In this document: positions 1 through 51,868 of the stretch, one piece after another | Layout of the letters: the number at the start of each line of letters is the position of its first letter | Numbering within the stretch: position 1 is the first letter of the stretch | Assembly: GCA_015143295.1 (NCBI GenBank) | Contig: CM026565.1 | Span: 16,626,548-16,690,547 of the forward strand | Source of the DNA: Tetracentron sinense | Lineage: Eukaryota; Streptophyta; Magnoliopsida; Trochodendrales; Trochodendraceae | DNA: 64,000 bases | Reading direction: 5' to 3' | The notes under the pieces: model-generated | Seen by the model: only the letters and a program-made list of their open reading frames with translations | Databases searched by the model: none | Told to the model about the DNA's origin: nothing | Program-made: the position numbers and the translations under genes

Positions 1-2404
1 CGGCAGCATTCATGGATTTGATGAATCGGGTGTTCAGATCGTCTCTCGATCAATGTGTGATCGTGTTCGTAGATGATATCCTTGTGTATTCACAGTCACA
101 GGAGGATCACACGAGAGATCTCCGTCTGGTATTGCAGACACTTCGAGAGCATAGTCTGTATGCTAAGTTGAGCAAGTGTGAGTTCTGGCTGAACAAGGTG
201 TCTTTCCTTGGACACGTGGTATCTGCTGAAGGTATTTCAGTTGATCCTGCAAAGATTGAAGCGGTGATAAATTGGGAAAGGCCGAAGAGTGTCACCGAGA
301 TTCGTAGTTTCCTCGGGTTGGCAGGATATTACAGAAGGTTTGTGGAAGGATTTTCAAGTTTAGCAGCTCCGCTTACCTATCTCACACGGAAGAACACGAG
401 GTTCACTTAGAGTGATAAGTGCGAGGCTAGTTTCTTGGAGTTGAAAAAGAAGCTTACTTCGGCTCCTGTTCTTATAGTTCCATTTGGGAGCGGTGGTTTC
501 GAAGTCTATAGTGATGCTTCACTAGTGGGACTTGGATGTGTTTTGATGCAGCATAAAAAGGTGGTCGCTTATGCTTCCCGTCAGCTGAAGGAGCATGAGC
601 AGAATTACCCCACACATGACTTAGAGCTCGCTGCAGTCATCTTTGCACTGAAACTTTGGCGTCACTACCTCTACGGAGAAGAGTTCGTGGTGTTCACAGA
701 CCACAAGAGCTTGAAGTATCTTTTCCTCCAGAAGGAGTTGAATATGAGGCAGCGTCGTTGGATGGAGTTCATGAAAGACTACGACTGTTCCATCCAGTAC
801 CACCCGGGTAAGGCTAACGTGGTAGCTGATGCTCTTAGCAGAAAACCTTACGGAGTTATGGCTCAATTGAGAGTGCAGGAGTGGAAATTATTACATGATA
901 TGTGTCATTTGGAAACTACTCTCAGGCATGTCACCTATGGGCCGACAATGTCCAACGTGGTGGTTAGGCCACAGATCCTGAGCCAGATCAAGGAGTTACA
1001 GAATTCAGATGTGGAGTTGCTTGCTTACCGAGACAAGTCGGTGAGTAACGGCAGTCAGGAGTTCGCTTTAAATGGTGATGGTGCTATCACATTTAAGGGC
1101 AGGTTGTGTGTCCCCGCCGACACAGTTTTGAGGGATGAAATTTTGAATGAAGCTCACCGATCAAAGTACACGGTACATCCGGGAGGTACTAAGATGTACC
1201 AGAATCTCAAGAAGCACTACTGGTGGCGAAACATGAAGAGGGAAGTCGCTGAGTACATCGCCAGATGTTTGATTTGCCAGCAGGTAAAAGCCGAACATCA
1301 AAGGCCGGCAGGAACTACTTGCAGTCCCTTCCTATTCCGGAGTGGAAATGGGAGAACATCTCGATGGATTTCATTGTGGGTTTGCCGCGAACGGTGAAGG
1401 GCTCCGATGCTATTTGGGTGATTGTGGACAGGTTGACTAAGTCTGCACATTTTATTCCGTACCGAACTACTTTCAGTGCAAATCAGTTGGTAGCCCAATA
1501 TGTTAAGGAGGTGGTTCGACTGCACGGTGTGCCAGTTTCTATCGTGTCTGATCGAGATCCTCGGTTTACTTCCAGGTTTTGGAAAACTTTCCAGGATGCT
1601 ATGGGTTCGCGTTTAGAATTCAGTACCGCCTCCCATCCTCAGACCGATGGACAAACGGAGAGGGTGAATCAAGTAGTGGAGGATATGCTCCGAGCTTGTA
1701 TGCTGGATTTTCAGGGTAGTTGGGAGGAACAGTTGCCATTGGTTGAGTTTGCCTACAACAATAGCTATCAGGCAAGCATCCAGATGGCACCTTTTGAAGC
1801 TCTGTATGGTCGAAGTTGTCGATCACCGCTATACTGGGATGAAGTTGGTGAGAGGAAAATTCTTGGTCCTGAGTTGATAGAGCGGACCGCAGAAAGGGTC
1901 AAAATTATCCGGGAGCGATTGAAAAGTGCTCAGGATAGGCAGAAGAGCTATGCGGATGTACGCCGCAGAGATTTAGAGTTCCGAGTTGGAGATCGGGTCT
2001 TTGTGAAGATTTCGCCGAGTCGGGGAATCATGCGATTCGGGAAGAAGGGAAAGCTCAGTCCTAGGTACGTGGGACCATTTGAGATCGTCACAAGGGTTGG
2101 TGAGGTTGCTTACAGGGTAGCACTACCGCCTCACATGGTAGCGGTCCATAATGTATTTCACGTCTCTATGCTTAGAAAATACATTTCGGATCCGTCTCAC
2201 GTCATCGCTCTTGATCATGTTGAGATTCGAGAGGATCTTACGTTGGTTGAGCAACCAGTTCAGATTCTGGATCGTCGAGATCAAGTGTTGCGAACCAAGA
2301 CTATCCCTTTAGTCCTAGTGAAGTGGCAGCATCATTCCAAGGAAGAGGCTACATGGGAGCGAGAAGCCGAAGTACGAGAAAAGTACCCCCATTTATTTGT
2401 TTAA
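1..2404 (+). pseudogene. E1 pol: RT end, RNase H, integrase, chromodomain (fossil)
   Basis: Translation gives the RT palm with the [10 protein letters not shown] box near base 65, then the RNase H region ([11 protein letters not shown] and TDHKSLKYL, roughly 500-720), the integrase zinc-binding segment (HPGGTKMY onward, roughly 1170-1290), the integrase core with [13 protein letters not shown] near 1633, and a chromodomain-type end (VLVKWQHHSKEEATWE, about 2310-2370). In this family the polyprotein copies the element RNA and inserts the DNA, and the chromodomain directs insertion to chromatin. The frame is broken about twice. It is close in sequence to the pol of E2 and E3 but clearly a separate subfamily. 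Confidence 0.9.
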
Positions 2405-2481
2405 GGCCATGGCATTCCCTTGTATTTTGCTATAGTTTTACCCATGTATGTATCGTCCAAATTTCGGGGATGAAATTTTTG

Positions 2482-2495
2482 TAAGGGGGGGAGAA
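2482..2495 (+). promoter_or_regulatory. E1 polypurine tract
   Basis: A G-rich purine run (AAGGGGGGGAGAA) lies directly before the TGTAGC start of the 3' LTR. This is where plus-strand DNA synthesis is primed in LTR elements. The same position holds TGGTGGGGAGAA in E2. Confidence 0.85.
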
Positions 2496-2707
2496 TGTAG
2501 CACCCCGGACTTTTTCATCCTTAATGAATAGCACCTTCGTAGCTAATTGGCCGTTTTCGTAGTCTAATTAACAAATAAGGGAGATATCGGAAATTCCGAA
2601 ACTTCAGAAATGTTCGTTTTCGAAAGACGGATCCAACGCAAGTTGAATCGTCGAAATCCGACGAGCGAGTCAAAAGATATGGTCAAAACAGTCCAGACAT
2701 ACAGAGC

Positions 2708-2892
2708 ACCGATCGCTCGGTCATTACCAGCGATCGATCGGTCCACTACCGATCGCTCGATGGCTGTCGCACGGTTAACTTTTTTGTATGGGGAAAAATT
2801 CCAGAGAGTGTGTTTTTGACCGATCTCTCGGTCATAACACCGATCGACCGGTAAGCCACCGATCGCTCGGTCCATACCACCGATCGATCGGT
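2708..2892 (+). promoter_or_regulatory. Phased palindrome array in E1 U3 (3+4 units)
   Basis: Seven copies of a 14-base near-palindrome, consensus ACCGATCGATCGGT, start at 2708, 2729, 2748, then 2819, 2839, 2858 and 2879. Spacing within each cluster is 19-21 bases. The gap between clusters holds the conserved TATGGGGAAAAATTCCAGAG block. The array ends about 55 bases before the TATA box, where upstream promoter elements are expected. A role as protein binding sites is inference. Confidence 0.75.
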
Positions 2893-2948
2893 CATACGCA
2901 GTTTTTCTTCATTAAGGGTGTTTAAGACTTTAACCATCACCCTTTGCC

Positions 2949-2956
2949 TATAAAAG
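2949..2956 (+). promoter_or_regulatory. TATA box of E1 LTR
   Basis: TATAAAAG lies about 55 bases after the palindrome array and ahead of a CT/GA-rich leader (GAGAGAGAGAAGAAGG near 3015). It is the likely core promoter of the LTR. Confidence 0.65.
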
Positions 2957-3869
2957 GGCTGGGTTCGTGCCTTAGGGTTTCAGAAACCCTCTGTGCCCTA
3001 TCTTAGGAGATTTTGAGAGAGAGAAGAAGGAGAGGAACTACTTGTTGATCAAGCTTGTGGAAGATCAAGGTTCTTCCACTTCCCTTGGTGATTCTCAACC
3101 AAGAACACAAGGTTATTGCTTGTTCCAGCCATTGGGAGTCAAACTCATTTATTTCTCTAAGGTAGATACACTCTACTACAATCTTGCAATCCTACTAGTT
3201 ACTAATTATGATTCTTCTTATCTATGCCCTATCTATATGTATTGATTTTATGTATGAAAAGGTGTGATTATATACTTGGATGAAGGTTACCATTATGATG
3301 CACTCTAAGTGTTTGATAAAATACCTCTAAGGGATTCTATGCTTAAATACGATGATTTCTCTTATTAAGTGCATATGCTCGCATGTCTCGCATGAACCGA
3401 TGGTTTCCATGGATTTCTCAAAGTACAAATAAAGGTTTTTCACGAAAAGACGAATAATGAATGATTCTAAGTAACTCTATGATTTCTCTAAGATCGTTTC
3501 ACAAGCTCTAAGGATCATACCATGCTCACAAGGAAACTCTATGATAATGCTCTAAGATCGTCTCACAAGCTCCACGGATCACAATGAAATGCTCTAAGAT
3601 CTCTAAGGTTATGCTCTATGGAAATGCTCTATGGTATTGCTCTATGCTCTATGTCTCTATGGATCATAATGACTCTAAGTAACTCCATGAACTCACAAGA
3701 ACTCATAAGGCTATGATTATCGATTGACTCACACGGTTACCGTTTTGGTTTCGAATATTATCTCATATATGCTTTCACGGTTTCCATGCTTTAAGGATTT
3801 TACGGATTTCATTCTCCATGTCTTGTATGCTCTATGCCTAACCGCTTTATTGTTATTAGTTTGTATACA

Positions 3870-3888: not shown

Positions 3889-3912
3889 TCGATATTGTTA
3901 TGATCGGCAGGT

Positions 3913-4044
3913 GCTCGGGTTCCATTCGATTTGTGTGGCGAAGAACCTTGGGTCGAGGAAGAGTACCGTGACCCGGAGCCTTCCATGGATCACTATCATG
4001 ACGATGGTGCTTTAGATAGGAGTCGTGACTTCGATTTCTGTTGA
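3913..4044 (+). other. PWVEEEY-type coding patch in E1 LTR
   Basis: Forty-three codons stay open, followed by a stop. The product contains ARVPFDLCGEEPWVEEEY and ends with DFDFC. The matching patch at 33571 differs at 18 third, 9 first and 4 second codon positions by my count, the pattern expected of a conserved protein frame. I know of no named domain for it. It may be a free small peptide, or an exon joined after the GCAG acceptor-like site at 3910. Confidence 0.5.
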
Positions 4045-5499: not shown

Positions 5500-7778
5500 T
5501 TTTATTATTGGTTCCTCAAACTCTTGGTGTGTAGATAGTGAATCTACTTCACATATTTGTAATATGTTACAGGGGTTTCAGGAGAGCAGAAAGCTCAGTG
5601 ATGGGGAAGTCAAAATAAGGATGGGAACAGAAGCAAGTGTTGCTGCGATCGCCATCGGAACTTATATTTTAGAATTTACTTTTTAATAGGATCTTAGTTT
5701 TAAAAGACTGTTTATATGTGCCAGACATGCGCTGAAATTTGATTTCTGTTTCTAGTTTAATCTTTAATGGTTATTCAGTACATTTTGATACTAATGTAGT
5801 TATCAAATACAATAATAGTTTTATTGTTTCCGGCACATTATCTAATGGTCTTTATTATCTTGATCCAGTAAGCAATTCTGTAAATAACATTGACGATAAA
5901 GAGTCCACCAGTGTGACACCTCAGAAAAGAGGTAGAGATTCTATGAATCCAACATACTTATGGCATCTCAGATTAGGCCATATCAATTTGGATAGGCTCA
6001 ATAGATTGGTAAAGGATGGTCCTTTAAACCATTTACATGTTGAACCTTATCCAACTTGTGAACCTTGTTTGCAAGGTAAAATGACCAAAAGGCCATTTAC
6101 AGGCAAGCCTAAGAGAGCCACAAGTATATTGGAATTAATTCACACTGATGTATGTGGACCCATGAATCATTCAGCCAGAGGTGGCTTTGTCTACTTCATT
6201 ACATTCACAGATGATTTTTCTAGATTTGGTTTCATATATCTAATGAAACACAAGCCAGAATCTATTGAAAAGTTCAAAGAATTCCGGAATGAAGTAGAAA
6301 AGCAATCAGGTAAATGTATTAAAACTCTCTAATCCGACAGAGGAGGAGAGTACCTTTCGAATGAGTTCATAGATTATCTTAGAGATAATGGAATTTTATC
6401 CCAATGGACTCCCCCAGGATCACCCCAGCTTAATGGTGTTTCAGAAAGAAGAAATCGAACCCTATTGGATATGGTTCGTTCAATAATGAATAATACTGAT
6501 TTGCCAATATCTTTTTGGGGATATGCATTAGAGACTGCAATCTATCTATTGAATAGGGTACCTTCTAAGTCTGTTTCCAAAACTCCATTTGAACTATGGA
6601 ATAGGCGAAAACCTAGTCTAAAGCATGTCAGAGTATGGGGTTGTCCAGTTCATGTGCGAAAGCAGAACTTTGACAACTTGGAATGTAGGACTGAGAAGTG
6701 CCTATTTATAGGATACCCAAAAGAAACTCTCGGATATTATTTCTATAATCCTAGCGAACAAAAGGTGTTTGTGAGCAGGAATGCCATTTTTCTAGAAGAG
6801 GATATGATCCTCAATAGAAAAGATGGACTTAGAATTGATCTTAAGGAGCAAAAGCTAGATAAAGTGACCATGGTTAATCCCATCTTAACTGAACCTTTAA
6901 ATACACAATAGCCCAGGAGAAGTACAAGGATCAGTCGTCCTCCAGATAGATTGTCTTATCAGTATGAGGTATATTCTATGGAATCGGATTCCTTAGATGA
7001 TGATCCTTAAAGTTATCAAGAAGCAATATGTGATATTGATTATGATAATTGGAAAAAGGCCATGGAATCTGAAATGGACTCCATGTACTCGAATGGTGTC
7101 TGGACCCTAGTTGAAAAGCTTGAGGGAATTAGACCTATTGGGTGCAAATGGATCTACAAGAGGAAACGTGGATCCGATGGAAAGGTAGAGACCTTTAAAG
7201 CAAGGCTTGTGGCGAAAGGGTATAGTCAAAGAGCTGGTATAGTCCATCAGGATTCTGTTATCAATTGCAGCCTTTTATGATTATGAGATATGGCAAATGG
7301 ATGTCAAAACCGTATTCTTGAATGGAAACATTCAAGAGGATATTTATATGGACCAGCCCGAAGGTTTTGAACTCCATGGCCAAAATAATAAAGTCTGCAA
7401 ATTGATAAAATCTATATATGGCCTTAAGCAAGCTTCTCGGAGTTGGAATATCCGTTTTGATGAATCAATCAAATCGTTTGGTTTTCAACAAAACATGGAT
7501 GAGGCATGTGTGTACAAGAAGGTCAGTGGGAGTGCAATAACTTTCCTAGTTCTTTATGTAGATGATATTCTACTCATTGGGAATGATGTAGGAATGTTAT
7601 CAACAGTTAAAATCTGGTTGTCATGTAACTTTGCAATGAAAGACCTCAGTGAAGCTTCCTATATTCTTGGTCTTAAATTGTTTAGAGATCGAAAGAAAAG
7701 GATGTTGGGATTGTCCCATGTCAATTATATTGACAAGATCTTGCGCAAATATAGCATGGAAAATTCCAAGAAAGGGTT
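5500..7778 (+). pseudogene. Copia1 pol: protease, integrase, RT (fossil)
   Basis: Recognisable parts are a protease-type patch (NSWCVDSES, near 5520), the GAG-pre-integrase domain (LWHLRLGHINLDRLNRL, about 5960-6070), the integrase core (HTDVCGPMNHSARGG and TFTDDFSRF, about 6140-6230, then LLNRVPSKSVSKTPFELW), and the copia RT (WTLVEKLEGIRPIGCKWIYKR, about 7100-7160, and FLVLYVDDILLIGND, about 7540-7590). It ends after SMENSKKGF where Tat-A takes over. It is broken several times. Confidence 0.88.
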
Positions 7779-7949
7779 TTGCAACGACCAATCACGATTA
7801 TGCATGATGTGCAAGTCAGAAAATGTAGGAAGGATTTTTATTGACTGTAGTGAAGTGAGTGAGGTGAGTACAGGACTGACTCAATAAAATAGAAAATACT
7901 CAACCCTAAGCAGGTCTATCAGGGATGGCAAAGTCAAGCGGCCGAGGCA

Positions 7950-13386: not shown

Positions 13387-13823
13387 TGCCCTAAAAGCCA
13401 TTGTGCCATATATTTCAATCTCATACTATCTTAGTGTGTTACAAATACTTTATCTGATAAAGCCTTGGTTATCGGGTCAGCAACATTAAGTTGAGACCTA
13501 ATCTTTGTAATAATTATGTCTTGCTTCTCAATAATCTCATTAATGAGAAGATACTTCCTTTGTGTGAAAAGTAAGCACATAATCCCTAGTCCTTTTCAGG
13601 TACTTCATAATGTGCTTCACAGCTGTCCAATGATTAACACCTGGATTGCTTTGGAACCTACTAACAACTCCCACTGCATGATAGATATCCAGTCTAGTAC
13701 ATAACATGGCATATATGAGGCTCCCAACTGCCAAAGCATAAGGGTACCTCTTCATCTGCTCGATCTCATCAGCTAATGTAGGGGCCATCTTTTTAGACAA
13801 AGTGACAACATGTCTAAAAGGAA
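13387..13823 (-). pseudogene. Copia2 RT end / RNase H fragment (fossil)
   Basis: Minus-strand translation gives a stretch containing VTLSKKMAPTLADEIEQM, then SLIYAMLCTRLDIYHAVGVV and NHWTAVKHIMKYLKRT, the typical joint between copia RT and RNase H. It abuts the left edge of E2. The neighbouring copia RT on the far side of E2 (23073 onward) is not continuous with it. Confidence 0.85.
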
Positions 13824-14662
13824 AGAGAGGAGAAGGGGATTTGCAACTAGGGTTTTCCATTGGAGAAGAAATCAAAGGGGTGAAGACCCTAGATCGTCCC
13901 CAAGCACGTTTTCTTCAAGATTTCAACTCAAGCTCGTGTGGGGTTCCCTTCTCAAGCTAGAGCAGCACTCTCTACGGTATTTTCAAGAGGGTTTCCTACC
14001 CAATCAAGTATAGTTTGAGTAAGGGCTTTCTTCTTCCAAGTTGGAGTTTAAATCAAGGTCTACACCAAGATCAAGCTTCGATTCAAGGTTAGTACACTCT
14101 ACTAACTTTCTTTAGCAATAATCTAGTTTTTCCCTTTGACATTATGATGTTGGTCTTGTATCTTCCCTTACTTGAAATGTGCTATACTTCCTAAACCTAA
14201 ACAAGATAAATGTCAATGTGGGGTTGTATGTATGAATGGTGGATGTAGAGGCGATTGGATGCCGTTGGACGTGGTGAAATGTGGGTATGGAAAATGGTGG
14301 AAGGGCACTCTATGAATAATGAACATACTTGGATGTTGTGTTGAAAATTTATGCGCTAAAAAGGGGAAATAAAACTACTAAAATGTTGCACACCGGATGT
14401 TTGATAATATGCCTAAACCAAGAATAAATGAAATTGATAAAGGAAATGGATGTAAGCTTTAAGTAATTATTCTTGTAAATGATGACTTGACCAAATGCCA
14501 TGTTGATCACCTAAATGCTTACATGCTATACTATGAATTGAAATATGAGGCGATATCCCTCTTGTTACACGTGTCCCCATGATTGTCACTATTGGCACGC
14601 ACACGAGTACACATGCATGCATGAAACCGGGTTTTCCAAGATTGTATTTGTACATGATGAAT

Positions 14663-14930
14663 CAAGAACATGACAAGGAGGTTGATAGCCCAAGGAAGGG
14701 TGCTAGCCTCTGGCTCACAAGAGAAATGGAACAAGAACATGACAAGGAGGTTGGTAGCCCAAGGAAGGGTGCTAGCCTCTGGCTCACAAGTGAAATGGAA
14801 CAAGAACATGACAAGGAGGTTGGTAGCCCAAGGAAGGGTGCTAGCCTCTGGCTCACAAGAGAAATAGAACAAGAACATGACAAGGAGGTTGGTAGCCCAA
14901 GGAAGGGTGCTAGCCTCTGGCTCACAAGTA
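14663..14930 (+). repeat. 69-base tandem repeat, 4 units (5' LTR of E2)
   Basis: Units start at 14663, 14732, 14801 and 14870, the last being shorter. Because 69 is a multiple of three, long open frames appear on both strands in several phases; these are not taken as genes. The same array lies at 22112-22379 in the 3' LTR. It sits inside the intron-like stretch between the donor-like and acceptor-like sites. Confidence 0.9.
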
Positions 14931-15203
14931 TACAAGTCAAGAACAAATCAAGACATGAAATACAAGACAAGACATGACACACATACATGATTTGACCGAG
15001 ACACGAAAAAGGTTTCCGAGACATGAGTTTTACCGAGGTTTTTGCATTCATACACGCACGTCAAGATATGGCTATGTATCGTATGCTTTCACTATTGCTT
15101 TAAATTAATATCTTGTATTTCTCACTGTTGTTATGCTTTCGCTATTGTTATGGTTAGCTAGTAGTTTGTACTCGCTGAGTATTCCATGCTCAGCCGTACT
15201 TTT

Positions 15204-15344
15204 ATGTCGGCAGGTACTGTGGATGTCCTCGACCCCGAGGCTTGGGTCGAGGAGGAGTATGTAGAGGAGAGGGAGCCACCTATCCCATGGCAGTCTCTGG
15301 AGGATGGGGACTTGGATGTGTGGCCATACCTCGACCACTGTTGA
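15204..15344 (+). CDS. MSAG small frame in E2 5' LTR (46 codons)
   Basis: ATG at 15204 opens a 46-codon frame: MSAGTVDVLDPEAWVEEEY, then an acidic Pro-rich part and the end WPYLDHC. It lies 10 bases after the CTGAG hairpin. The same frame type is in the E3 LTRs (39 codons) and at 33571 (55 codons); E1 has the core. The product is acidic and has no signal peptide or membrane segment. The ATG overlaps a TCGGCAG|GT acceptor-like site, so translation of the unspliced RNA and use as a spliced exon are alternatives. I recognise no known family. Confidence 0.45.
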   Translation: MSAGTVDVLDPEAWVEEEYVEEREPPIPWQSLEDGDLDVWPYLDHC

Positions 15345-15627
15345 GAGGAGAGGGTTAGAGAGTTCCTTTTGTATTTTGATAGGTGGGCATGTCCACCTTT
15401 ACTTTGATTGTATTTGGTATATGTTAACTTGGAATACTATTTGGAGTTATAGAAGAAAAGAAAAAGTTGGCTTATGCTTCCGTACTTATGTTTAGTTTCC
15501 GCGCTCTGATTATCATTGTATTATATTATGTTTAGCCTCTTGCATTACAGGATGGTTTGACAGGTACACGTAGTCACCTCTAAAGTATCCCTTAACTCCT
15601 AGGGGGTATTTTGGGGCGTGACAGAGT

Positions 15628-15646
15628 TGGTATCAGAGCTCTAGGC
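15628..15646 (+). promoter_or_regulatory. E2 primer binding site
   Basis: TGGTATCAGAGCTCTAGGC begins four bases after the LTR end. TGGTATCAGAGC is the usual initiator-Met-tRNA type site of plant LTR elements. Confidence 0.9.
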
Positions 15647-15950
15647 ATTAGAGTCCCTAGGGTCACTTAGATGATTGAACAAGGTATTAGAATCACCTTA
15701 GAGAGTTGTATTCCAAGTATAGACTAACAAGTTAGTCTTAGTCAAAATGGGTTGAACTTCAACCGAACATAGAGTCCTACGCTAGGAACACGGATTGTAT
15801 GTTATGCTATTGTGTTATATACCATGTGTACATTATTGGTGTTGTACTTATTAAATGTGCTTGATGAATATGTATTGAGTGAATTGCGAAATTGTACTAA
15901 ATGCGTATCCAAGTTAGACTCATGTTGTATTGTCGTTCTCAGGAGAAATC

Positions 15951-17136
15951 ATGAGACGCAATACCCGGGGTCGCGGGTACAACACGAGGGGTAATGGAGG
16001 TGATGCTCCATCGGGTGATGATCAACCCGACTTTGCCCAAGCATTTACATCCATAGCCGAGACTTTGGCTATGTTGGCGGCAAGGCAACCGGCCACTCCG
16101 CCTAATGCGGCACTTATACCGGCTCCTCCTAACCGAGCCCAAGCCCGGATAGAAGCTTTCCGGAGGATGAGGCCTCCAACTTTTTGTGGAAGCATTGATC
16201 CACTTGTCGTCGAGGGTTGGATTCGGCAAATTGAGAAGATATTCTCGGAATTGGCACCTACAGAAGTAGAGAGGGTCACATGGGCTGCCTTTATGCTTGA
16301 AGGCGAGGCCGACCATTGGTGGAAGTCGGCACTTCGGACCCCCAGAGTTGACCCGGCAAGGCCAAGAATGGACATGGGGAGAATTCTTGGACGTTTTCTA
16401 CAAGAAATACTTTCTGGTTGGGATGAAAGAAAAGAAAGAAATTGAATTTATTACCTTGGAGCAAGGTAATATGTCTGTAGCGGCTTACGAAGCCAAGTTC
16501 TCAGAGCTATCTCGATTTGCTCCACACATGATAGCCACCGAGGCTATGAAGGCCCGGAAATTCGAGAGGGGGTTGAAGGCCTACCTCAAGGATCGTGTCT
16601 CAATGTTCCGACATGAGACATATTCAGAAGTTGTGGACAAGGCATTGTTGGCCGAGTCCAACTCCGAAGAGTTCTTTAAGAGAAGAGGAATGGAGAAAGG
16701 ACAGTCTAGTAGTTCAGGGGAGAAGAGAGCTAGGACTATGTCTTATCAGTCCGCAGGGCCGGCTCAGTCATAGAGGATGTACTCGGCACCACAGGCTCCC
16801 CGCCCTTTTGCTCCACCGGCTTTTCGCCCGGCTACCTCGTATGCTCCTCGCCCCGCAGTGACTCAGGCTACGGGTTATACTCCTCCCACTTATTCCCATG
16901 ATGTCTGCACCCTTTGTGGAAGGAGGCATCCAGTAGGGGAATGTCGGAAGGCTACAGGAGGATGTTTTCATTGTGGCGACCAGGGCCACATGATTCGGGA
17001 TTGTCCCCGACGTCGATTGCCAGCTCAGTCTTCGGGGAGCAAGCCCCCGATTCTGCAGACATCTCAGCCTAGCTCTTCTCAGGCTTCGAGGGCCTCACAG
17101 TCTACCCGGCCTCCTCGCCCAGCCACTCAGGGCTGA
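15951..17136 (+). pseudogene. E2 gag (fossil)
   Basis: The start MRRNTRGRGYNTRG is shared with E3 gag (MRRNTRGRGPHTRA). A retrotransposon-gag core follows (IEAFRRMRPPTFCGS, WAAFMLEGEADHWW; about 16150-16320), then the helical part to about 16700, a Pro/Ala-rich linker, and a CCHC knuckle CFHCGDQGHMIRDC at about 16963-17004 with an extra Cys/His pair ahead of it (CTLCGRRHPVGEC). It forms the particle shell and packages RNA. It is broken about twice. After 17136 comes a roughly 200-base AT-rich spacer with a 13-base A run. Confidence 0.88.
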
Positions 17137-17339
17137 GTCTTCGCCTTATCGGAGAGAGACGCACGTGCATCCGACGATGTCGTGCAAGGTACGCAAAAAA
17201 AAAAAAAATTCTAGAGTCTAAGTTGTGTGAATTTCTATGGTTTATTATGTGATTATTTATACTAAGGGTTACCTATGCATGATACTTGTTGTTGTTTGAA
17301 ATCTACTAATAGTAGCTACTTAATCGCACAGGCGCTTTA

Positions 17340-20300
17340 TTAGTGAACGAGTGTCTCGCCCGAGTGTTGATCGACACAGGATCCACTCACTCCTTTGTGT
17401 CACCTAGTTTTGCGAAGGGATTTTTGACTGAGGCTATTCCGTTAGAGCGGGAGTTGACCATTGCAACTCCACTCGGTAAGTCAGTTGACACGAACAAGAT
17501 ATTCAGAGATTGCGTGGTTCAAGTAGGGGAGAATGAACTAGTGGCCGATCTTATCATTTTGGATTTCCAAGATTTAGACTTTGACGTCATTCTTGGTATG
17601 GATTGGTTGGCAAACCATCACGGGCATGTTGTGTGTTTTGAAAAGATGGTGAATTTCAAGCCGGAAGGGGGTAAGCCTTTTCACTTCCGAGGATTAAGAG
17701 AGAGGGACATTGCTCGCCTCATAGCCTTGAGTATAGCACACCCAGAAGCACAAAACTCATCGGCTATTCCAGTTGTGAGTGAGTTCTTAGATGTGTTCCC
17801 GGAAGAACTTCCCGGGTTACCTCCGAATCGGGAGATTGAGTTCGCTATAGAGCTTACTCCGGGCACCGCTCCGATTTCAAGAGCCCCATATAGAATGGCC
17901 CCGATAGAGCTTGAAGAATTGAAGAAGCAAATTGAGGAGTTACAACAACTTGGTTTCATCCAACCAAGTGTCTCACCGTGGGGAGCTCCGGTTCTCTTTG
18001 TGAAGAAGAAGGACGGGTCTATGAGGATGTGTATAGACTACCGTCAGTTGAACAAGGTAACTATCAAAAATCGTTATCCCTTGCCAAGGATAGACGACTT
18101 GTTTGACCAACTGAAGGGAGCGAGATTCTTCTCCAAAATTGATCTTAGATCGGGGTATCATCAATTAAGGATCAAGGCGGAAGATGTTCCGAAGACGGCT
18201 TTCAGGACTCGGTATGGGCATTACGAGTTCCTTGTCATGCCTTTTGGGCTGACGAATGCACCGGCGGCATTCATGGATTTGATGAACCGGGTGTTCCGAT
18301 CATACTTGGATCGATGCGTGATTGTATTCATCGACGACATTTTGGTGTATTCCCAGACACGGGAAGATCACGCACGAGACCTCCGCCTTGCTCTGGAGAT
18401 GTTGAGAGAGCATAGGCTATATGCCAAATTGAGTAAGTGCGAGTTCTGGTTAGAGAAGGTCGCATTTCTTGGACACGTGGTGTCGGCCGAGGGCATTTCT
18501 GTAGATCCAACCAAGGTTGAGGCAGTCATGAGTTGGGAGAGGCCCAAAAGCGTCACGGAGATACGTAGTTTCCTCGGATTGGCAGGCTACTACCGGAGAT
18601 GGGATTCTCTAGTTTGGCTGCACCTCTCACCTACTTGATAAGGAAAAGTGCAAAGTTCAGTTGGAGTGACCGATGTGAAGTAAGTTTCCAAGAGTTGAAG
18701 AAACGCCTCACCACAGCCCCTGTCCTTATTGTGCCATCTGGACCTTTTGGGTATGAGGTGTATAGTGATACCTCGCATGTTGGACTCGGGTGTGTCCTAA
18801 TACAACACAAGAAGGTCATTGCCTATGCATCAAGGCAGTTGAAAGAGCATGAAAAGAACTACCCCACTCACGACTTGGAGCTTGCGGCGGTCGTGTTTGC
18901 ACTTAAAATTTGGCGACATTATCTGTACGGGGTGGAGTTCTATGTGTACACAGACCACAAGAGCCTCAAGTATCTCTTTTCCCAAAAAGAGCTAAACTTA
19001 CGACAACGGCGTTGGATTGAGTTCTTAAAGGACTACGAGTGCACTATCCAATATCACCCGGGAAAAGCAAATGTGGTGGCAAACGCTCTGAGTAGGAAAC
19101 CATCGGGGTTGTTGGCTCACATGTTGGTGCGGGAATGGAGGCTGTTAGACGATTTGGCAAATCTAGACATCAGTGTGAATGATTCTGTCCGCAGCCCTGT
19201 TTTGGCAAATGTTACGGTTCGGTCGTACCTTATAGATTTGATCCAGGAGTATCAAGCCACAGACACTGACTTGTTGGCTTTCCGGGATAAGGAAGTGGCC
19301 AAGGGTAGTACGGACTTCTCTCTCACTAGTCGAGGTGCTATTACATTCAAGGGAAGGCTTTGTGTCCCAGCCAATGCAGACCTTCGGAGAGAGATTATGG
19401 ACGAAGCTCACCGGTCTAAGTATACAGTGCATCCCGGGGGGACAAAGATGTATCGGAACCTCAAGAGTCACTTTTGGTGGCGAAACATGAGGAGGGAGGT
19501 TGCGGAGTATGTGGCACGGTGTTTGGTGTTCCAACAGGTGAAAGCGGAGCATTTGAGACCGGTGGGTCTTTTGCAGTCTCTCCCTATTCCCGAGTGGAAA
19601 TGGGAACATATCTCTATGGACTTCATCGTGGGATTGCCGAAGACGGTCAAGAAGACCGATGCTATATGGGTAGTTATTGATAGACTCACGAAGTCCGCTC
19701 ATTTCTTACCGTACCGGACTACATTCAACTCCAATCAGTTAGCGGAGCTATACATCAAAGAAATAGTCCGATTGCATGGGGTGCCAGTGAGTATTGTGTC
19801 GGATAGAGACCCAAGATTCACATCCAGGTTTTGGAAAAGTTTTCAAGGTGCAATGGGCTCCCGGTTAGACTTTAGCACAGCTTTCCACCCACAGACCGAC
19901 GGGCAAACAGAGAGGGTGAATCAAGTGATAGAAGACATGCTCCGAGCTTGTATGTTGGATTTTAAAGGAAGTTGGGAGGATCACCTACCTTTGGTGGAAT
20001 TCGCTTACAATAACAGTTATCAAGCAAGCATACAAATGGCACCTTTCGAAGCCTTATACGGAAGAAGTTGTAGGTCCCCCTTGTATTGGGATGAAGTTGG
20101 AGAAAGAAAGATTTTGGGGCCCGAGTTGATTGAACGAACCGCGGATAGGTTCAAGCTTATACGGGAGAGGTTGAAGACCGCACAGGACAGACAGAAAAGC
20201 TATGCCGACAACCGAAGGAGGGATCTTGAATTCCGAGTCGGTGATTTTGTGTTTGTAAGGATTTCACCGACCAAAGGTGTTATGCGATTCGGGAAGAGTG

Positions 20301-20656
20301 GCAAGCTTAGCCCGAGATATGTGGGTCCGTTCGAGATCATTACTCGAGTCGGTAAAGTTGCTTACCGTGTTGCTTTGCCCGCTCACATGGCGGCGGTCCA
20401 CAACGTGTTTCATATCTCCCAGCTTCGGAAGTACATCCCGGATCCTTCTCACATCATCGAGCTTGATCCGGTTGAGATTCGAGAGGATCTCACTTTGGTT
20501 GAGAAGCGGGTTCATATTTTGGATCGAAGAGACCAAGTGCTTCGCAACAAGACTATACCGCTAGTTCTAGTGCAATGGCAACATCACGCGAGAGAAGAAG
20601 CCACGTGGGAGCGTGAAGCCGAAGTCAAAGCAAAGTATCCTGAGTTGTTTGAATAG
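17340..20656 (+). pseudogene. E2 pol: protease, RT, RNase H, integrase, chromodomain (fossil)
   Basis: Domains in order: aspartic protease ([15 protein letters not shown], about 17361-17405); RT ([20 protein letters not shown] about 17995, FIDDILVY about 18326); RNase H (TDHKSLKYL, about 18950-18975); integrase zinc-binding and core (HPGGTKMY about 19430, [13 protein letters not shown] about 19887); and the chromodomain end ([20 protein letters not shown], about 20565-20630). Lengths match the Tekay/Del type. The frame is nearly whole, with about one break. It lies 91 bases ahead of the 3' LTR. Confidence 0.92.
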
Positions 20657-20735
20657 GTTGTGTATATGGCGTGTGATTTTGCTTTGGTTTTGTACATGTA
20701 TGTATCGTCCAAATTTCGGGGATGAAATTTTTGTA

Positions 20736-20747
20736 TGGTGGGGAGAA
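20736..20747 (+). promoter_or_regulatory. E2 polypurine tract
   Basis: TGGTGGGGAGAA directly precedes the TGTAGC start of the 3' LTR, as in E1. Confidence 0.85.
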
Positions 20748-20959
20748 TGTAGCTCCCCGGACTTTTTCATCTTTAATGAATGGCACTTTCATAGCTAATT
20801 GGCCGTTTTCGTAGTCTAATTAATAAATAAGGGAGAAATTGGAAATTCCGAAATGTCAGAAATGTGCGTTTTCGAAAGACGAACCTAACGCAAGTTGAAT
20901 CGTCAAAATCCAACGAGCGAGTCAAAAGATATGGTCAAAACAGTCCAGACATACAGAGC

Positions 20960-21144
20960 ACCGATCGCTCGGTCCAGTCAGCGATCGATCGGTCCATAAC
21001 CGATCGATCGGTAGCTATCGCACGGTCAGAAATTTTGTATGAGGAAATTTTCCAGAGAGTGAGTTTTTGACCGGTCGATCGGTCATAAACACCGATCGAT
21101 CGGTAGGCAACCGATCGATCGGTCATAACCACCGATCGCTCGGT
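20960..21144 (+). promoter_or_regulatory. Phased palindrome array in E2 U3 (3+4 units)
   Basis: Units start at 20960, 20980, 20999, then 21070, 21091, 21110 and 21131, most reading ACCGATCGATCGGT or one change from it. Number, grouping and spacing equal those of E1 (first-to-fourth distance 110 against 111). The gap holds TATGAGGAAATTTTCCAGAG. Confidence 0.75.
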
Positions 21145-22111
21145 CTTCGTGCTTTTTCAGAATTTTCATTAAGGGCTTTTTCGTCTTTTGGGGTTTAAAC
21201 CCTTAACCATAAGGGCTTGCCCGAGCCTTTAGGGCTTCATTCACAGCACTTAAGGGATTTTGAGAGAGAGAGAGAGAGGAGAAGGGGATTTGCAACTAGG
21301 GTTTTCCATTGGAGAAGAAATCAAAGGGGTGAAGACCCTAGATCGTCCCCAAGCACGTTTTCTTCAAGATTTCAACTCAAGCTCGTGTGGGGTTCCCTTC
21401 TCAAGCTAGAGCAGCACTCTCTACGGTATTTTCAAGAGGGTTTCCTACCCAATCAAGTATAGTTTGAGTAAGGGCTTTCTTCTTCCAAGTTGGAGTTTAA
21501 ATCAAGGTCTACACCAAGATCAAGCTTCGATTCAAGGTTAGTACACTCTACTAACTTTCTTTAGCAATAATCTAGTTTTTCCCTTTGACATTATGATGTT
21601 GGTCTTGTATCTTCCCTTACTTGAAATGTGCTATACTTCCTAAACCTAAACAAGATAAATGTCAATGTGGGGTTGTATGTATGAATGGTGGATGTAGAGG
21701 CGATTGGATGCCGTTGGACGTGGTGAAATGTGGGTATGGAAAATGGTGGAAGGGCACTCTATGAATAATGAACATACTTGGATGTTGTGTTGAAAATTTA
21801 TGCGCTAAAAAGGGGAAATAAAACTACTAAAATGTTGCACACCGGATGTTTGATAATATGCCTAAACCAAGAATAAATGAAATTGATAAAGGAAATGGAT
21901 GTAAGCTTTAAGTAATTATTCTTGTAAATGATGACTTGACCAAATGCCATGTTGATCACCTAAATGCTTACATGCTATACTATGAATTGAAATATGAGGC
22001 GATATCCCTCTTGTTACACGTGTCCCCATGATTGTCACTATTGGCACGCACACGAGTACACATGCATGCATGAAACCGGGTTTTCCAAGATTGTATTTGT
22101 ACATGATGAAT

Positions 22112-22379
22112 CAAGAACATGACAAGGAGGTTGATAGCCCAAGGAAGGGTGCTAGCCTCTGGCTCACAAGAGAAATGGAACAAGAACATGACAAGGAGGT
22201 TGGTAGCCCAAGGAAGGGTGCTAGCCTCTGGCTCACAAGTGAAATGGAACAAGAACATGACAAGGAGGTTGGTAGCCCAAGGAAGGGTGCTAGCCTCTGG
22301 CTCACAAGAGAAATAGAACAAGAACATGACAAGGAGGTTGGTAGCCCAAGGAAGGGTGCTAGCCTCTGGCTCACAAGTA
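22112..22379 (+). repeat. 69-base tandem repeat (3' LTR of E2)
   Basis: Second copy of the four-unit array, with units starting at 22112, 22181, 22250 and 22319. It appears identical to 14663-14930, so the array has not changed in length since insertion. Confidence 0.9.
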
Positions 22380-22652
22380 TACAAGTCAAGAACAAATCAA
22401 GACATGAAATACAAGACAAGACATGACACACATACATGATTTGACCGAGACACGAAAAAGGTTTCCGAGACATGAGTTTTACCGAGGTTTTTGCATTCAT
22501 ACACGCACGTCAAGATATGGCTATGTATCGTATGCTTTCACTATTGCTTTAAATTAATATCTTGTATTGCTCACTGTTGTTATGCTTTCGCTATTGTTAT
22601 GGTTAGCTAGTAGTTTGTACTCGCTGAGTATTCCATGCTCAGCCGTACTTTT

Positions 22653-22793
22653 ATGTCGGCAGGTACTGTGGATGTCCTCGACCCCGAGGCTTGGGTCGAG
22701 GAGGAGTATGTAGAGGAGAGGGAGCCACCTATCCCATGGCAGTCTCTGGAGGATGGGGACTTGGATGTGTGGCCATACCTCGACCACTGTTGA
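22653..22793 (+). CDS. MSAG small frame in E2 3' LTR (46 codons)
   Basis: Same frame as 15204-15344. ATG follows the hairpin at 22624-22642 by 10 bases; stop TGA at 22791. The product has the AWVEEEYVEE core and the C-terminal LDHC. Function unknown. Confidence 0.45.
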   Translation: MSAGTVDVLDPEAWVEEEYVEEREPPIPWQSLEDGDLDVWPYLDHC

Positions 22794-23072
22794 GAGGAGA
22801 GGGTTAGAGAGTTCCTTTTGTATTTTGATAGGTGGGCATGTCCACCTTTACTTTGATTGTATTTGGTATATGTTAACTTGGAATACTATTTGGAGTTATA
22901 GAAGAAAAGAAAAAGTTGGCTTATGCTTCCGCACTTATGTTTAGTTTCCGCGCTCTGATTATCATTGTATTATATTATGTTTAGCCTCTTGCATTACAGG
23001 ATGGTTTGACAGGTACACGTAGTCACCTCTAAAGTATCCCTTAACTCCTAGGGGGTATTTTGGGGCGTGACA

Positions 23073-23872
23073 TTTTTGGAATCCAAATTCTTTGATCGAA
23101 AGATCAAATCTTTGGTTCCAGCTTCTAGAAGCTTGTTTCAAACCATATATTGACTTATTGAGCTTGCTTACCATGTTCTCCTGGTTAGGAGCAATGAAGC
23201 CCTCTGGTTGCTTCATATAGATGTCTTCATCTAACATTCCATTAAGGAAAGAAGTTTTGGCATCCATTTGCGATATCTCATAGTTATGGTATGCAGCTAT
23301 AGCTGGCAATATCCTGATGGATTTGAGCATAGCTACAGATGAAAAGGTATCCTCATAATCAACTCCTTGAATTTGAGTATAACCTTTTGCAATAAGTCTA
23401 GCTTTATAGGTCTCCACGTTACCATCGGCACCCTTCTTCCTTTTGTAAATCCATTTACATCCAATTGGCATTATACCATCAGGTGGATCTATTAAAGTCC
23501 AAACGCCATTGTTATACATAGAATCTGTTTCAGCATTCATGGCTTTATTCAATTGAGATGCATCTACATCCAATGTAGCTTCCTAATAAGTATTAGGATC
23601 CGTATCCTCATCATCAGGGTAACTAGATAAACTTCATTATTGTAATACTGAAGTCTATCCGGTGGTCTAGAAACTCTTTCTGACTTTCTCAGTGGAACAG
23701 AATTAGGAGAAATTAAAGTGGGAGGATTATGTTCAGGTTGGATACTGGATATATCGTCTTTCACCTCATGAAATTCAACCTTCTTAAGGAGATCCATTTC
23801 TTGCTCCAAGAAAGTGGCATGAAGCCTAACAACTATTTTTTGGTCTGCCTTAGAGTAGAAATAGAAACCCTT
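23073..23872 (-). pseudogene. Copia2 integrase end and RT part (fossil)
   Basis: On the minus strand this starts at the E6 edge with the end of the integrase region (FYFYSKADQK-like, about 23865) and a linker (RKSERVSRPPDRLQYY). The copia RT follows (MYNNGVWTLIDPPDGIMPIG, then MDAKTSFLNGMLDEDIYMKQ and IYGLKQASRSW, about 23520-23110). It stops at FGFQK against the right edge of E2. It is broken about twice. Confidence 0.87.
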
Positions 23873-33086: not shown

Positions 33087-34300
33087 CAAAGTAATCTCAT
33101 AAGACATTTGACAAAGCAAAAAGGGAAGGTTGGTCAAGGATCTTGGCAGCCCACTTCGATGTATTCAATGAAGGGTAGTTATATACCTAACTCTAAGTCT
33201 TTTCACGGGTGCTAAGATCTGGCTCTAAGTTATGCTCATAAGAATCTCACAAGCTCATAGGATCTCATAAGTCTCATAAGTGAATGCTCATAAGCTCATA
33301 ATTGCTCTAAGATTTCACGGCTCACAAGAACTCATAAGAACTCTAAGGAACTCAAAGAAATCATAAGACTTGATTCTCATATGCTCATAAGACTCATACA
33401 GTTTTGGATTTCATAAGAAACTCATAAGTAAATGGTTTTGGAACTAGTACGGGTTTCCTCGGATTTCTATGCTCTACAGCTCTATGTCTTGCATGCTCCA
33501 TGATATTATTATTTCATTGTTCGTTAGTAGTTTGTAGACACTGAGTATTCCATGCTCAGTCATGCATGTTATGTCGGCAGGTGCACGTGTTCCATTTGAT
33601 ATCTGTGGTTCGGATCCTTGGGTGGAGGAAGAGTACTATGAGCCAGAGCCTACCATGGATCATTACCAAAACGAGGGGGCACTAGATAGGCGGCCCAATT
33701 TCAATTTCTGTTCAGAGAGTGAGAGAGAGTATATGTAGACACCTGAATCTTTTCATGCCATTGCCTAGTTTATTAGGGGTATTTTAGTCTTTAAGGTATC
33801 TTCATGCGTGTATTCTTGCATAACTGGTTATCTTAAGGGTTTTCTCATGGCCTGAGTTTGTTGTGGGTTTAGTGTATGAGTTAAGAGGTGTGAGGTGTTT
33901 TTTGGGAAAACAAGCAAAGAGTATAAAACATACTCTATGTGTTAAGTGAATAGTGCTTATAGAGGTCAAGGCCTCTATGTATAGTCTTGAGTGTTTCTTA
34001 GTGAAATGATAGTTTGATGTAGGTATATGTTGAGTCCAAACCAAGAGAATATGAGTACCCTAAGTATTCAAGATCATAGAGTATAAAACACCCTAAGTGT
34101 GTATGTAGAACTCTAGGAGTCATGTGGTTAATGCTAGTGCGCAAGACATAAAGAAGTCGGGGCCTCTTATGCATGTTAGTGTGTGTTCAATGATCACTAA
34201 GGTGAGTTAAAACATATGGGGGTGGAATCAGGAGATGAGAGTAGGGGTTGGAATCTAGATAGATGGATTATGAAAATAACCCAAGGGTCAAGAGGAATGT
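33087..34300 (+). repeat. Chromovirus LTR fragment, 3' part
   Basis: The stretch from about 33180 is rich in CTCATAAG/CTCTAAG words like the E1 LTR (3480-3720). It then carries the 19-base hairpin (33541-33559), the MSAG frame (33571-33738) and a TTAGGGGTATTTTAG block resembling the LTR terminus of E1. Beyond 33900 there is a weak direct repeat around GAGTATAAAACA (33929 and 34079). No U3, PBS or coding part is present, so it is an old LTR piece. Bases 34200-34310 show nothing recognisable. Confidence 0.65.
33571..33738 (+). CDS. MSAG small frame in LTR fragment (55 codons)
   Basis: ATG at 33571 starts MSAGARVPFDICGSDPWVEEEY, closely matching the E1 patch (ARVPFDLCGEEPWVEEEY). It then runs into an acidic tail and stops at 33736. 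Compared with E1 the differences are concentrated at third codon positions. No known domain. Confidence 0.45.
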   Translation: MSAGARVPFDICGSDPWVEEEYYEPEPTMDHYQNEGALDRRPNFNFCSESEREYM

Positions 34301-42954: not shown

Positions 42955-43074
42955 CTACTGATAACCCTCTACAGGAGGTTCCTCCAAAGGCTCCTCGACG
43001 TACTCCTCCTCCACCCATGGACCAGGAGCACAAACATCAAATGGAGCAGCAGCTCCCTCAGAACCTGCCGACAT
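42955..43074 (-). CDS. MSAG small frame in E3 3' LTR (39 codons)
   Basis: Minus-strand ATG at 43074, stop at 42955. Reads MSAGSEGAAAPFDVC, then GPWVEEEYVEEPLEEPP and ends EGYQ. The MSAG start, PFD.C and PWVEEEY are shared with the frame at 33571; E1 shares PFD.C and PWVEEEY. The start follows the hairpin by 10 bases. Function unknown. Confidence 0.45.
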   Translation of the reverse strand: MSAGSEGAAAPFDVCAPGPWVEEEYVEEPLEEPPVEGYQ

Positions 43075-48103: not shown

Positions 48104-48329
48104 AGAAAAGCCTTCTGAAAAACTCGGCTAGACAAACGAATGAGTAGACCCGGTATCAATCAACACTCGAGCCAAACACTCATTGACTAGTAGGGTTCCT
48201 GAAATTTTAGCTAGCTAAGTCAATCCATGCATCAACAACGTATACATATAGGTATTTATATATATAACATGCCATATACGTACACAAAGAATAATTCATA
48301 ATAATTTAATTTACGGGTAATTAAATAAA

Positions 48330-49592
48330 TTACAACTGCGTACCTTGCACTACATCGTCAGATGCAAGTGCATCACCCTCTGTCAAGGCAAAAACTCGCC
48401 CCTGGTTCACCTGGCGAGACTTAGGTGTAGACCGGGTAGTCTGAGATGACGCCTGATATGATCCTACTGGGCGTGCTGGGGGCCTAATCCCCTGAGACTG
48501 GCCTGGTAAATGCCGATTGGGGCAATCCCTGATCATATGGCCCTGGCGACTACAATGAAAACATCCACTCGATGCTCTTCGGCAATCTCCTGCCGGGTGC
48601 CTTCGGTCGTATGAAGTGCAGACCTCGTGTGTATAAGTCGGAGGGGCCGAAGGTGGAGCATACCTCATCGTCTGAGGTGTAACTGGCCGTGGAGCTGGAA
48701 GAGCCTAAGGTCGCGGTGCCTGAGGCACATACTGCCGGGGAGCAGGAGGCGCATAAGATGGCCTCATCGGTGGTGCTGGCCACACATACTGATAAGGGCC
48801 GGTACGAGCCCACCTCTCTAGAGGTGCTGAACTACTGGATTGGCCTCTCGTCAATTCCCTCTTCTTGGACACTGCCTCAGAGTTGGTATCAACCAACAAG
48901 GCTTTATCCACCACTTCAGCGTAAGTGGCGTGCCTAAAGACCGATACTTTCTCCATGATGACATCCTTGAGTCCTTGCTCAAACCTCCTCACCTTCATTG
49001 CCTCGGTGGCAATCATATGTGTCGTGAAGCGTGATAGCTCCGAGAACTTGGCCTCGTATTGAGCCGTCGACATCAAACCTTGCTCGAGGTTGATGAATTC
49101 TCTCTCTTTCTTTTCCCGTGCTCCAATTGGAAAATACTTCTTATAGAACATATCCTTAAACTCCTCCCAAGTCCACGGTTGACCTTGCATGGTCAAGTCC
49201 CGTGTCCTCAATGCGGACAACCACCAATGGTGGGCTTCACCTTCTAGCATGAAAACTGCCCATGCTACTTTCTCTTCCTCTGTAGGAGAGAGCACTGCAA
49301 ATATCTTCTCAACCTGGAGGATCCAAGCCTCCGCAGCAAGAGGGTCCACACTCGCATGGAAGGATGGAGGCCTCAATCTCCGGAATGCCTCAACTCCAGC
49401 TATACGATGTACTGGAGCTCCAGGCGGTGGAGTAGGTGCCGCTGACGCTGGTATAGTTTGCCAAGCCACCAGGATGGCGAGTGTCTCAGCAATAGAGCCT
49501 AAGACCTGAGAGAGGTCCGGCTGCTCATCCTCATCCTGTGAAGAAGAGGAAGCTCTGGTATGTGGTCCACGACCCCGTGTGTTCCGTCTCAT
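48330..49592 (-). pseudogene. E3 gag (fossil, nearly whole)
   Basis: Start MRRNTRGRGPHTRA at 49592, then the gag core (VEAFRRLRPPSF, WAVFMLEGEAHHWW, FYKKYFPIGAREKKEREF), a Pro/Ala-rich linker and the CCHC knuckle CFHCSRQGHMIRDC near 48565-48525, with a second Cys/His pair ahead. It forms the particle and binds RNA. It is broken about once. An AT-rich spacer of about 150 bases (48190-48340) separates it from the protease, at the same place as in E2. Confidence 0.88.
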
Positions 49593-50241: not shown

Positions 50242-50361
50242 CTACTGATAACCCTCTACAGGAGGTTCCTCCAAAGGCTCCTCGACGTACTCCTCCTCCA
50301 CCCATGGACCAGGAGCACAAACATCAAATGGAGCAGCAGCTCCCTCAGAACCTGTCGACAT
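50242..50361 (-). CDS. MSAG-type small frame in E3 5' LTR (39 codons)
   Basis: Same frame as 42955-43074 with start MSTG in place of MSAG; the PFDVC and PWVEEEY core is kept. Confidence 0.45.
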   Translation of the reverse strand: MSTGSEGAAAPFDVCAPGPWVEEEYVEEPLEEPPVEGYQ

Positions 50362-51703: not shown

Positions 51704-51868
51704 ACCGAGCGATCGGTGTTAATGACCGATCGATCGGTTTCATAACCGAGCGATCGATTAAAATTTCACTCTCTGGAAAATTTCCCCATACAAAAATCTT
51801 GACCAGTCGATAGCCTCCGAGCGATTGGTTTTGGACTGATCGATCGCTCCATGGACCGAGCGATCGGT
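51704..51868 (-). promoter_or_regulatory. Palindrome array in E3 5' LTR (3+3 units)
   Basis: Units start (plus coordinates) at 51704, 51725 and 51745, then 51816, 51835 and 51855, again 19-21 apart. Unit number differs from the 3' LTR of the same element (4+1), while the spacing rule is kept. Confidence 0.72.

Follow-up and report, generated by a model that had tools for sequence, protein, structure and literature searches.

An open frame within the long terminal repeats of Tetracentron chromoviruses evolves as protein and may be an alternative terminal exon of gag

Annotation, masking, and dating of plant retrotransposons usually proceed as if their long terminal repeats (LTRs) were non-coding. 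Does this hold for a short open frame with the core WVEEEY that lies inside LTRs of Tetracentron sinense, and if the frame codes for protein, how would it be reached? We asked this of a 64-kb window, the whole stretch of DNA analyzed, which contains three chromovirus-type elements (E1, E2 and E3) and a fragment (the 33571 copy), each with the LTR frame. We confirmed the frame and found that it evolves as protein. It begins at a conserved acceptor-like site, in the single phase 1, and a conserved phase-1 donor lies at the end of gag. From the sequences, we judge it somewhat probable that the frame supplies the coding portion of an alternative 3'-terminal exon, located in the 3' LTR of Tekay/Del-like chromoviruses and spliced to Gag. 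We take these elements to be of the Tekay/Del clade, a label that follows the original prediction. The putative exons in the window are as follows.

3911 to 4044, plus strand: LTR coding exon of E1, 44 codons and TGA; in-frame ATG absent
15214 to 15344, plus strand: LTR coding exon in the truncated 5' LTR of E2, placed through the 7449-base offset of a gapless LTR match
22663 to 22793, plus strand: LTR coding exon in the 3' LTR of E2, 43 codons and TGA; first codon G|GT, one base of which is shared with the acceptor AG
33581 to 33738, plus strand: LTR coding exon of the 33571 copy; the frame extends 8 codons beyond the family end
42955 to 43064, minus strand: LTR coding exon in the 3' LTR of E3, 36 codons and TAG
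50242 to 50351, minus strand: LTR coding exon in the 5' LTR of E3

The original prediction was that four LTR types keep a small acidic frame under selection for its product. The WVEEEY core was present at all six places named (3949, 15243, 22692 and 33619 on the plus strand; 43017 and 50304 on the minus strand). It is preceded by an MSAG or MSTG start in three LTR types, as claimed: both LTRs of E2, the 33571 copy, and both LTRs of E3, but not E1. Over 44 codons of E1 and the 33571 copy, we counted 9, 3, and 19 differences at first, second, and third codon positions, where 9, 4, and 18 had been given; the exact counts were thus off, while the third-position excess holds (P = 0.0013). There are 15 synonymous and 16 non-synonymous differences in this pair (Fisher P = 8e-5), giving a non-synonymous rate (dN) of 0.172, a synonymous rate (dS) of 0.940, and a dN/dS of 0.18. 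For E2 and L050, a copy from a random sample of the genome, dN/dS was 0.29 (P = 0.004). Neither ratio is near 1, and both pairs were met in the window or the random sample, not through protein similarity. The other two forward frames of the E1 and 33571 pair hold 1 and 3 to 4 stops. We found no Pfam match at E 0.1 for three LTR-frame peptides, consistent with the earlier statement that no named domain fits. The frame usually ends at one stop position per family, as a terminal exon would; the 33571 copy, L059, and L061 read on. The tails are acidic, with 10 to 14 acidic and 0 to 4 basic residues over 36 to 44 positions in the eight that we counted.

The random sample consisted of twenty 10-kb stretches of the same genome, drawn from 15 contigs, whose copies carry L numbers. 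It contained related LTR copies in L035, L036, L038, L039, L047 (one per strand), and L050, some of them decayed. Genome searches with two peptides returned 27,053 and 28,812 candidates; among the 150 scored for each, about 103 and about 132 had no internal stop. From these sources we assembled a set of 26 copies, of which the window supplied 4 and the random sample 7, the other 15 being chosen ones (L051 to L065); the second LTR of E2, that of E3, and 30 near-identical loci were excluded. As the start site we took the AGGT closest to its expected position, with L047p, L038, and L039 set by hand and L057, which has no AGGT, placed by context. Pooled dN/dS was 0.12 in the 33571 type, a value biased low since L051 to L065 were found by protein similarity. 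In the L047 set, pairs without L038 lay between 0.06 and 0.91, apart from one at 2.71 (a single silent change) and one undefined; the pooled value of 0.30 is not meaningful, as the frame-broken L038 was kept in it. The dN/dS sets exclude L035, L036, L039, and L057, and E3 and L047m belong to no family set. E2-type copies in which the site was found (30 of 31 examined) were all open over 43 codons; these copies are young and nearly identical.

At the start of the conserved frame, 25 of the 26 copies read YAG|GT; L057 lacks the A. The base at -3 is C in 22 copies and T in 4, a pattern shared with splice acceptors. The A at -2 is kept in 25 of 26 copies and the T at +2 in all 26. The peptide searches favor copies with the site intact, but both bases stand at third codon positions, where a change would be silent. 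In each family the frame is read as G|GT, in one phase (GTVD..., GARVPFD..., GSRFDIC..., GSEGAAAPFD..., GVEQEY...). An in-frame ATG close upstream, within a stretch of about 35 to 55 bases, was present in 12 of 26 copies; it was absent from the other 14, 12 of which have an in-frame stop there. In E1, the ATG is shifted by one base relative to the frame, which has an in-frame TGA a short distance upstream. This LTR type is common: a 31-base word across the E1 site, with up to two mismatches allowed, had 712 + 666 = 1,378 matches. A downstream exon is the better reading of the frame, given that YAG|GT persists in all but one of the 26 copies whereas 14 lack a nearby ATG. Of the original prediction, selection on a protein inside the LTR is supported, and the implied stand-alone small protein starting with MSAG or MSTG is not.

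We then have a scan that is independent of the peptides, in which the 53 bases before TCGGCAG served as queries against the window and the 20 random stretches. In the window it found all six sites, each with YAG|GT and an open frame. In the random stretches it found seven LTR copies (L035, two in L036, L038, two in L047, and L050), with AG at the site in 7 of 7 and AG|GT in 6 of 7; an 18-base match in L045 was due to chance, and L039 was missed. The frame was recognizable in L035, L050, and both L047 copies and broken in L038. The two L036 copies lie at 3142 and 4632 on the minus strand, about 1.5 kb apart, and the second reads AG|AT at the site.

The LTR flanking the frame had been called hardly alignable. 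This is not uniformly so: the 50 bases just upstream of the site are the best-conserved stretch, with 43 of 49 positions identical between E1 and the 33571 copy and 47 of 49 between E2 and E3. Among 21 pairs from seven copies, z scores against shuffles were at least 3 in 18 pairs for this block, 17 for the exon, 5 for -170 to -50, and 3 for the downstream region.

22613 to 22662, plus strand: conserved 50-base block upstream of the E2 exon; hairpin GCTGAGTA/TGCTCAGC, then TCGGCAG, with the acceptor-like AG at its end

The arms of the hairpin vary by family yet still pair (CTGAGTAT/ATGCTCAG, TGAGTAC/GTACTCA, and GAGTGTT/AATACTC). A hairpin about 20 bases before the site was the best found in 20 of 25 copies; within the E2 block its arms are CTGAGTA/TGCTCAG. 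Several copies also show a second stem, GCCG../..CGGC, which abuts the AG.

A downstream exon would need a donor, and the end of gag has a candidate.

15951 to 17188, plus strand: gag region of E2, interrupted in this copy by a frame shift and by stops
17179 to 17194, plus strand: candidate gag donor of E2, GTCGTGCAAG|GTACGC; last exon base 17188, phase 1
17189 to 17331, plus strand: intron-like gap between gag and protease/pol in E2, 143 nucleotides (nt)
17332 to 20653, plus strand: protease, reverse transcriptase (RT), RNase H, integrase, and chromodomain region of E2
48199 to 48343, minus strand: intron-like gap between gag and protease/pol in E3, 145 nt, GTACGC...TTTCAG

In the alignment of E2, E3, and L050, gag ends with ...GATGTNGTGCAAG|GTACGC, and coding similarity returns after (A/T)CAG|G, at the protease start. 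Thus, the coding region contains a gap with GT...AG ends: GTACGC...CAG in E2, E3, L050, and L016, and GTACAC...CAG in L047, which has about 67% DNA identity in pol. Its length is 143 nt in E2, 134 in L050, and 145 in E3. In 28 adjacent gag-pol pairs, chosen by eye from tables of gag ends and pol starts (150 rows each of about 10,000 and about 12,000 candidates), the gap was 131 to 136 nt, with 15, 4, and 9 pairs in the modulo 3 classes 0, 1, and 2. Because the gap differs modulo 3 among E2 and L050, E3, and a family with a pol frame of 1,115 amino acids (aa), one ribosomal frameshift does not fit all types; this is support and not proof, since some copies are decayed.

We aligned 154 GTs across leader, gag, and pol and scored them with approximate donor weights; the three pieces scanned overlap by about 70 and about 100 bases, so a few GTs were perhaps counted twice. 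The gag donor CAAG|GTACGC, in phase 1 (CAA G|), had the best minimum score (4.1 in E2, L050, and E3). It is also found in L016 and in the more distant L047. Genome-wide, 5,574 donor sites have GGT and 24 have one of the other glycine codons (GGA, GGC, or GGG), a silent change that removes the GT, with a search word that fixes the neighboring bases. At the GTN codon eight bases before the donor GT, the third base was C in 28, G in 26, T in 24, and A in 22 of 100 rows listed; the four donor-site types are about equally common in these rows and offer a possible handle for sorting families. In the part of C1 that both lists cover, all six plus-strand LTR pairs of the E1 type had a gag donor, at a distance of 2,035 to 2,045 bases downstream of the 5' LTR site. 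Judged by site and spacing, the E1 type, which lacks an in-frame ATG, thus carries the donor too. An acceptor-like TTCTCAG|GA just before the gag ATG in E2 (15900-15953), L050, and E3 suggests a 5' leader intron, for which the 154-GT alignment held no conserved donor with a good score.

The gag-end donor is in phase 1, the phase that the LTR exon requires; agreement by chance would occur one time in three. Two other ways of supplying the frame were considered and rejected. An extension of pol into the LTR fails as pol stops at 20653 and the LTR begins at 20748, with no good conserved donor near the pol end. No coding exon that could act as partner was seen toward the 5' end of the LTR, where the alignment of E1, E2, and E3 is interrupted by gaps of one and two bases and every frame has many stops.

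We infer that the transcripts would be spliced, with the gag donor joined to the LTR site, and that the tail would have a role. The host spliceosome would join the gag-end donor CAAG|GT to either of two acceptors. Use of the near one would remove about 130 to 150 nt and yield Gag-Pol. Use of the YAG|GT acceptor in the 3' LTR, about 5.5 kb away in E2, would remove pol and add to Gag an acidic tail of about 36 to 44 residues, which in most types would carry a core like P-W-x-E-E-E-Y. The joined reading would be ...DDVVQ-G-(LTR tail), and the Gag stop codon would fall in the last exon. Acceptor choice would set the ratio of Gag to Gag-Pol, so that the balance of structural and enzymatic proteins would depend on competition between two 3' splice sites, the second within the LTR. 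That a whole clade of abundant plant chromoviruses has a coding exon in each LTR and gains an acidic Gag tail by long-range alternative splicing is a broader claim, which we hold more tentatively, at a little short of an even chance.

The LTR frame could also be a terminal exon with a different partner, whether the mid-gag GT at 16466, some donor of the 5' leader, or one in host transcripts that enter the LTR. We consider this unlikely, while giving it some weight. The conservation of YAG|GT would fit, and the GT at 16466 (CAAG|GTAATAT in E2 and L050, CAAG|GTTTGAT in E3) is in phase 1, is second by minimum score (5.5, 5.5, and 3.7 in E2, L050, and E3), and is the top-scoring GT in two of the three elements. 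However, its conservation could reflect the coding stretch in which it lies, LEQG, and its use as a donor would split gag mid-way. Leader donors score poorly, and the best pol donors, at 18758 and 19538, are in phase 0 by arithmetic from the frame start, which is the wrong frame for the LTR exon.

A stand-alone small protein or upstream open reading frame, translated from its own ATG near the transcript 5' end (the R region), seems to us more doubtful still. It would account for the short in-frame ATG starts in 12 of 26 copies; moreover, L047m, one of the 14 copies without a close ATG, is open to an ATG about 93 bases upstream, and L047 has a TATA-like run about 45 to 50 nt before the site. 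However, whole LTR types, the abundant E1 type among them, lack the ATG or have it in another frame, and in-frame stops stand in 12 of the 14 copies without it, so we judged this candidate unlikely. The remaining explanation, a conserved DNA or RNA signal (a promoter, or a dimerization or packaging hairpin) in which the open frame is incidental, would suit the strong conservation of the upstream 50 bases and the hairpin that recurs in 20 of 25 copies. It is nevertheless very improbable, as changes within the frame are concentrated at silent sites; the 30 open E2-type copies speak against it as well, though with the youth and near-identity already mentioned.

Several observations weigh against a terminal exon spliced to the gag end. 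The conservation of the upstream block and its hairpins exceed the needs of an ordinary acceptor, and the block could equally be a promoter or packaging signal. Two L036 copies retain this block without a recognizable WVEEEY frame, and in L038 and L039 the frame is broken. A single genome supplied all copies, and the peptides that found L051 to L065 spanned the site (S-A-G or S-T-G), which favors copies with the site intact. The GT at 16466 outscores the gag-end donor (4.1) in two of three elements. All nine pairs with the 1,115-aa pol frame have a gap of 132 or 135 nt, which places gag and pol in one frame, and stop readthrough could operate in that family. An intron of 5.5 kb is long for a plant. 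Finally, four junction words for a spliced gag-LTR retrocopy had 0 matches genome-wide, in a word search that itself works. There was also no fused gag-pol frame among 150 + 150 scored matches, where the largest frames were 443 and 1,130 aa. Thus the zero junction matches say little; such retrocopies may just be rare. For relatives in other genomes, 0 of 54 candidate stretches from viral_contigs were confirmed, a degenerate DNA word had 0 matches, and an integrase-chromodomain piece yielded 0 of 7; no plant collection was searched.

The elements themselves were delimited as follows.

13821 to 23072, plus strand: E2 element
20748 to 23072, plus strand: 3' LTR of E2, TGTAGCTCCCCGG to ...GCGTGACA
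from 2496, plus strand: 3' LTR of E1
52080 and 44771, minus strand: starts of the 5' LTR and the 3' LTR of E3

The true 5' end of the LTR is at TGTAG..., after the polypurine tract. The 5' LTR of E2, which starts at 13821, is therefore a truncated copy relative to the full LTR at 20748-23072. In E3, the 5' LTR extends to 52080; the initial direct-repeat call stopped at 51829, probably from indels between both LTRs. A profile search found Pfam domains in order, from protease to integrase in E2 and E3, and gag in E3. The Chromo domain scored 27.4 bits in E1 (cut-off 25.1) and 21.7 and 16.8 bits in E2 and E3, both below the cut-off. By the order of gag, protease, RT, RNase H, and integrase and by the chromodomain, these are plant Ty3/gypsy chromoviruses.

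Some further features were noted. The U3 region of the E2 LTR contains 69-base tandem repeats at 14588-14997 and 22037-22446. In the U5 region, at 22990-23018, CAG|GATGGTTTGACAG|GTAC forms a pair of acceptor-like and donor-like sites 13 bases apart; L050 is similar, and E3 has only the first half. Stretch L016, at 1-3231, combines an E2-type LTR (93 to 96% identity) with an E3-type gag (87%), as if recombinant. Matches to Ty1/copia-type RT (RVT_2) lie at 7243-7884 and 22965-23582 (minus strand); the latter directly adjoins the end of the E2 3' LTR, as if E2 were nested in a copia element. A stretch like a long interspersed nuclear element, at 57704-61464, has endonuclease, RVT_1, zf-RVT, and RNase H matches in successive frames.

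If the LTR frame is a terminal exon joined to gag, it would give one answer to the question of how Gag is produced in excess of Pol in these chromoviruses. With a selected exon in thousands of LTR copies, dates based on LTR divergence would be slightly biased, and ready-made splice acceptors would have been spread near host genes.

Our literature search, judged by titles and the starts of abstracts and with subscription journals mostly outside it, found no description of a Tekay/Del intron or LTR exon. Retroviral proteins that come wholly or partly from the 3' LTR and are made from spliced RNA are known in Sag of mouse mammary tumor virus and lentiviral Nef. Those are separate accessory proteins of animal retroviruses with their own start codons, and we suggest no sequence relation to them. 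In CRM chromoviruses, the coding sequence reaches into the 3' LTR (PMC3059260). Here, in contrast, the pol frame ends before the LTR, and 1.9 kb separate the start of the LTR from the frame within it. In CRM elements it is the C terminus of integrase that lies in the 3' LTR, as the pol frame runs on into it. In Ogre elements (Ty3/gypsy, Tat lineage), an intron is described that interrupts the gag-pol coding region and has to be removed for the whole polyprotein (PMC6317226). The elements described here likewise have an intron-like gap with GT...AG ends inside the coding region. They differ in that the gap lies between gag and protease of a chromovirus, is 131 to 145 nt where measured, and is accompanied by a second acceptor-like site in the LTR.

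The closest parallel in outcome is found in Ty1/copia elements. A spliced short GAG RNA is described for EVD/ATCOPIA93 of Arabidopsis (shGAG) and for the short GAG isoforms of sunflower and triticale (PMC8892269, PMC7730604, PMC7765848). The sunflower work has no Tekay element in its expressed set (PMC7730604). EVD splices and ends early inside the element, and its unspliced RNA gives full Gag-Pol, whereas here Gag-Pol would require excision of the small intron and a Gag-only product would draw on a coding exon of the 3' LTR. The elements also differ in kind: EVD is Ty1/copia, and those described here are Ty3/gypsy chromoviruses with the gypsy-type domain order and a chromodomain. What the two would share, on the splicing proposed here, is that host splicing yields a Gag-only mRNA apart from the Gag-Pol RNA.
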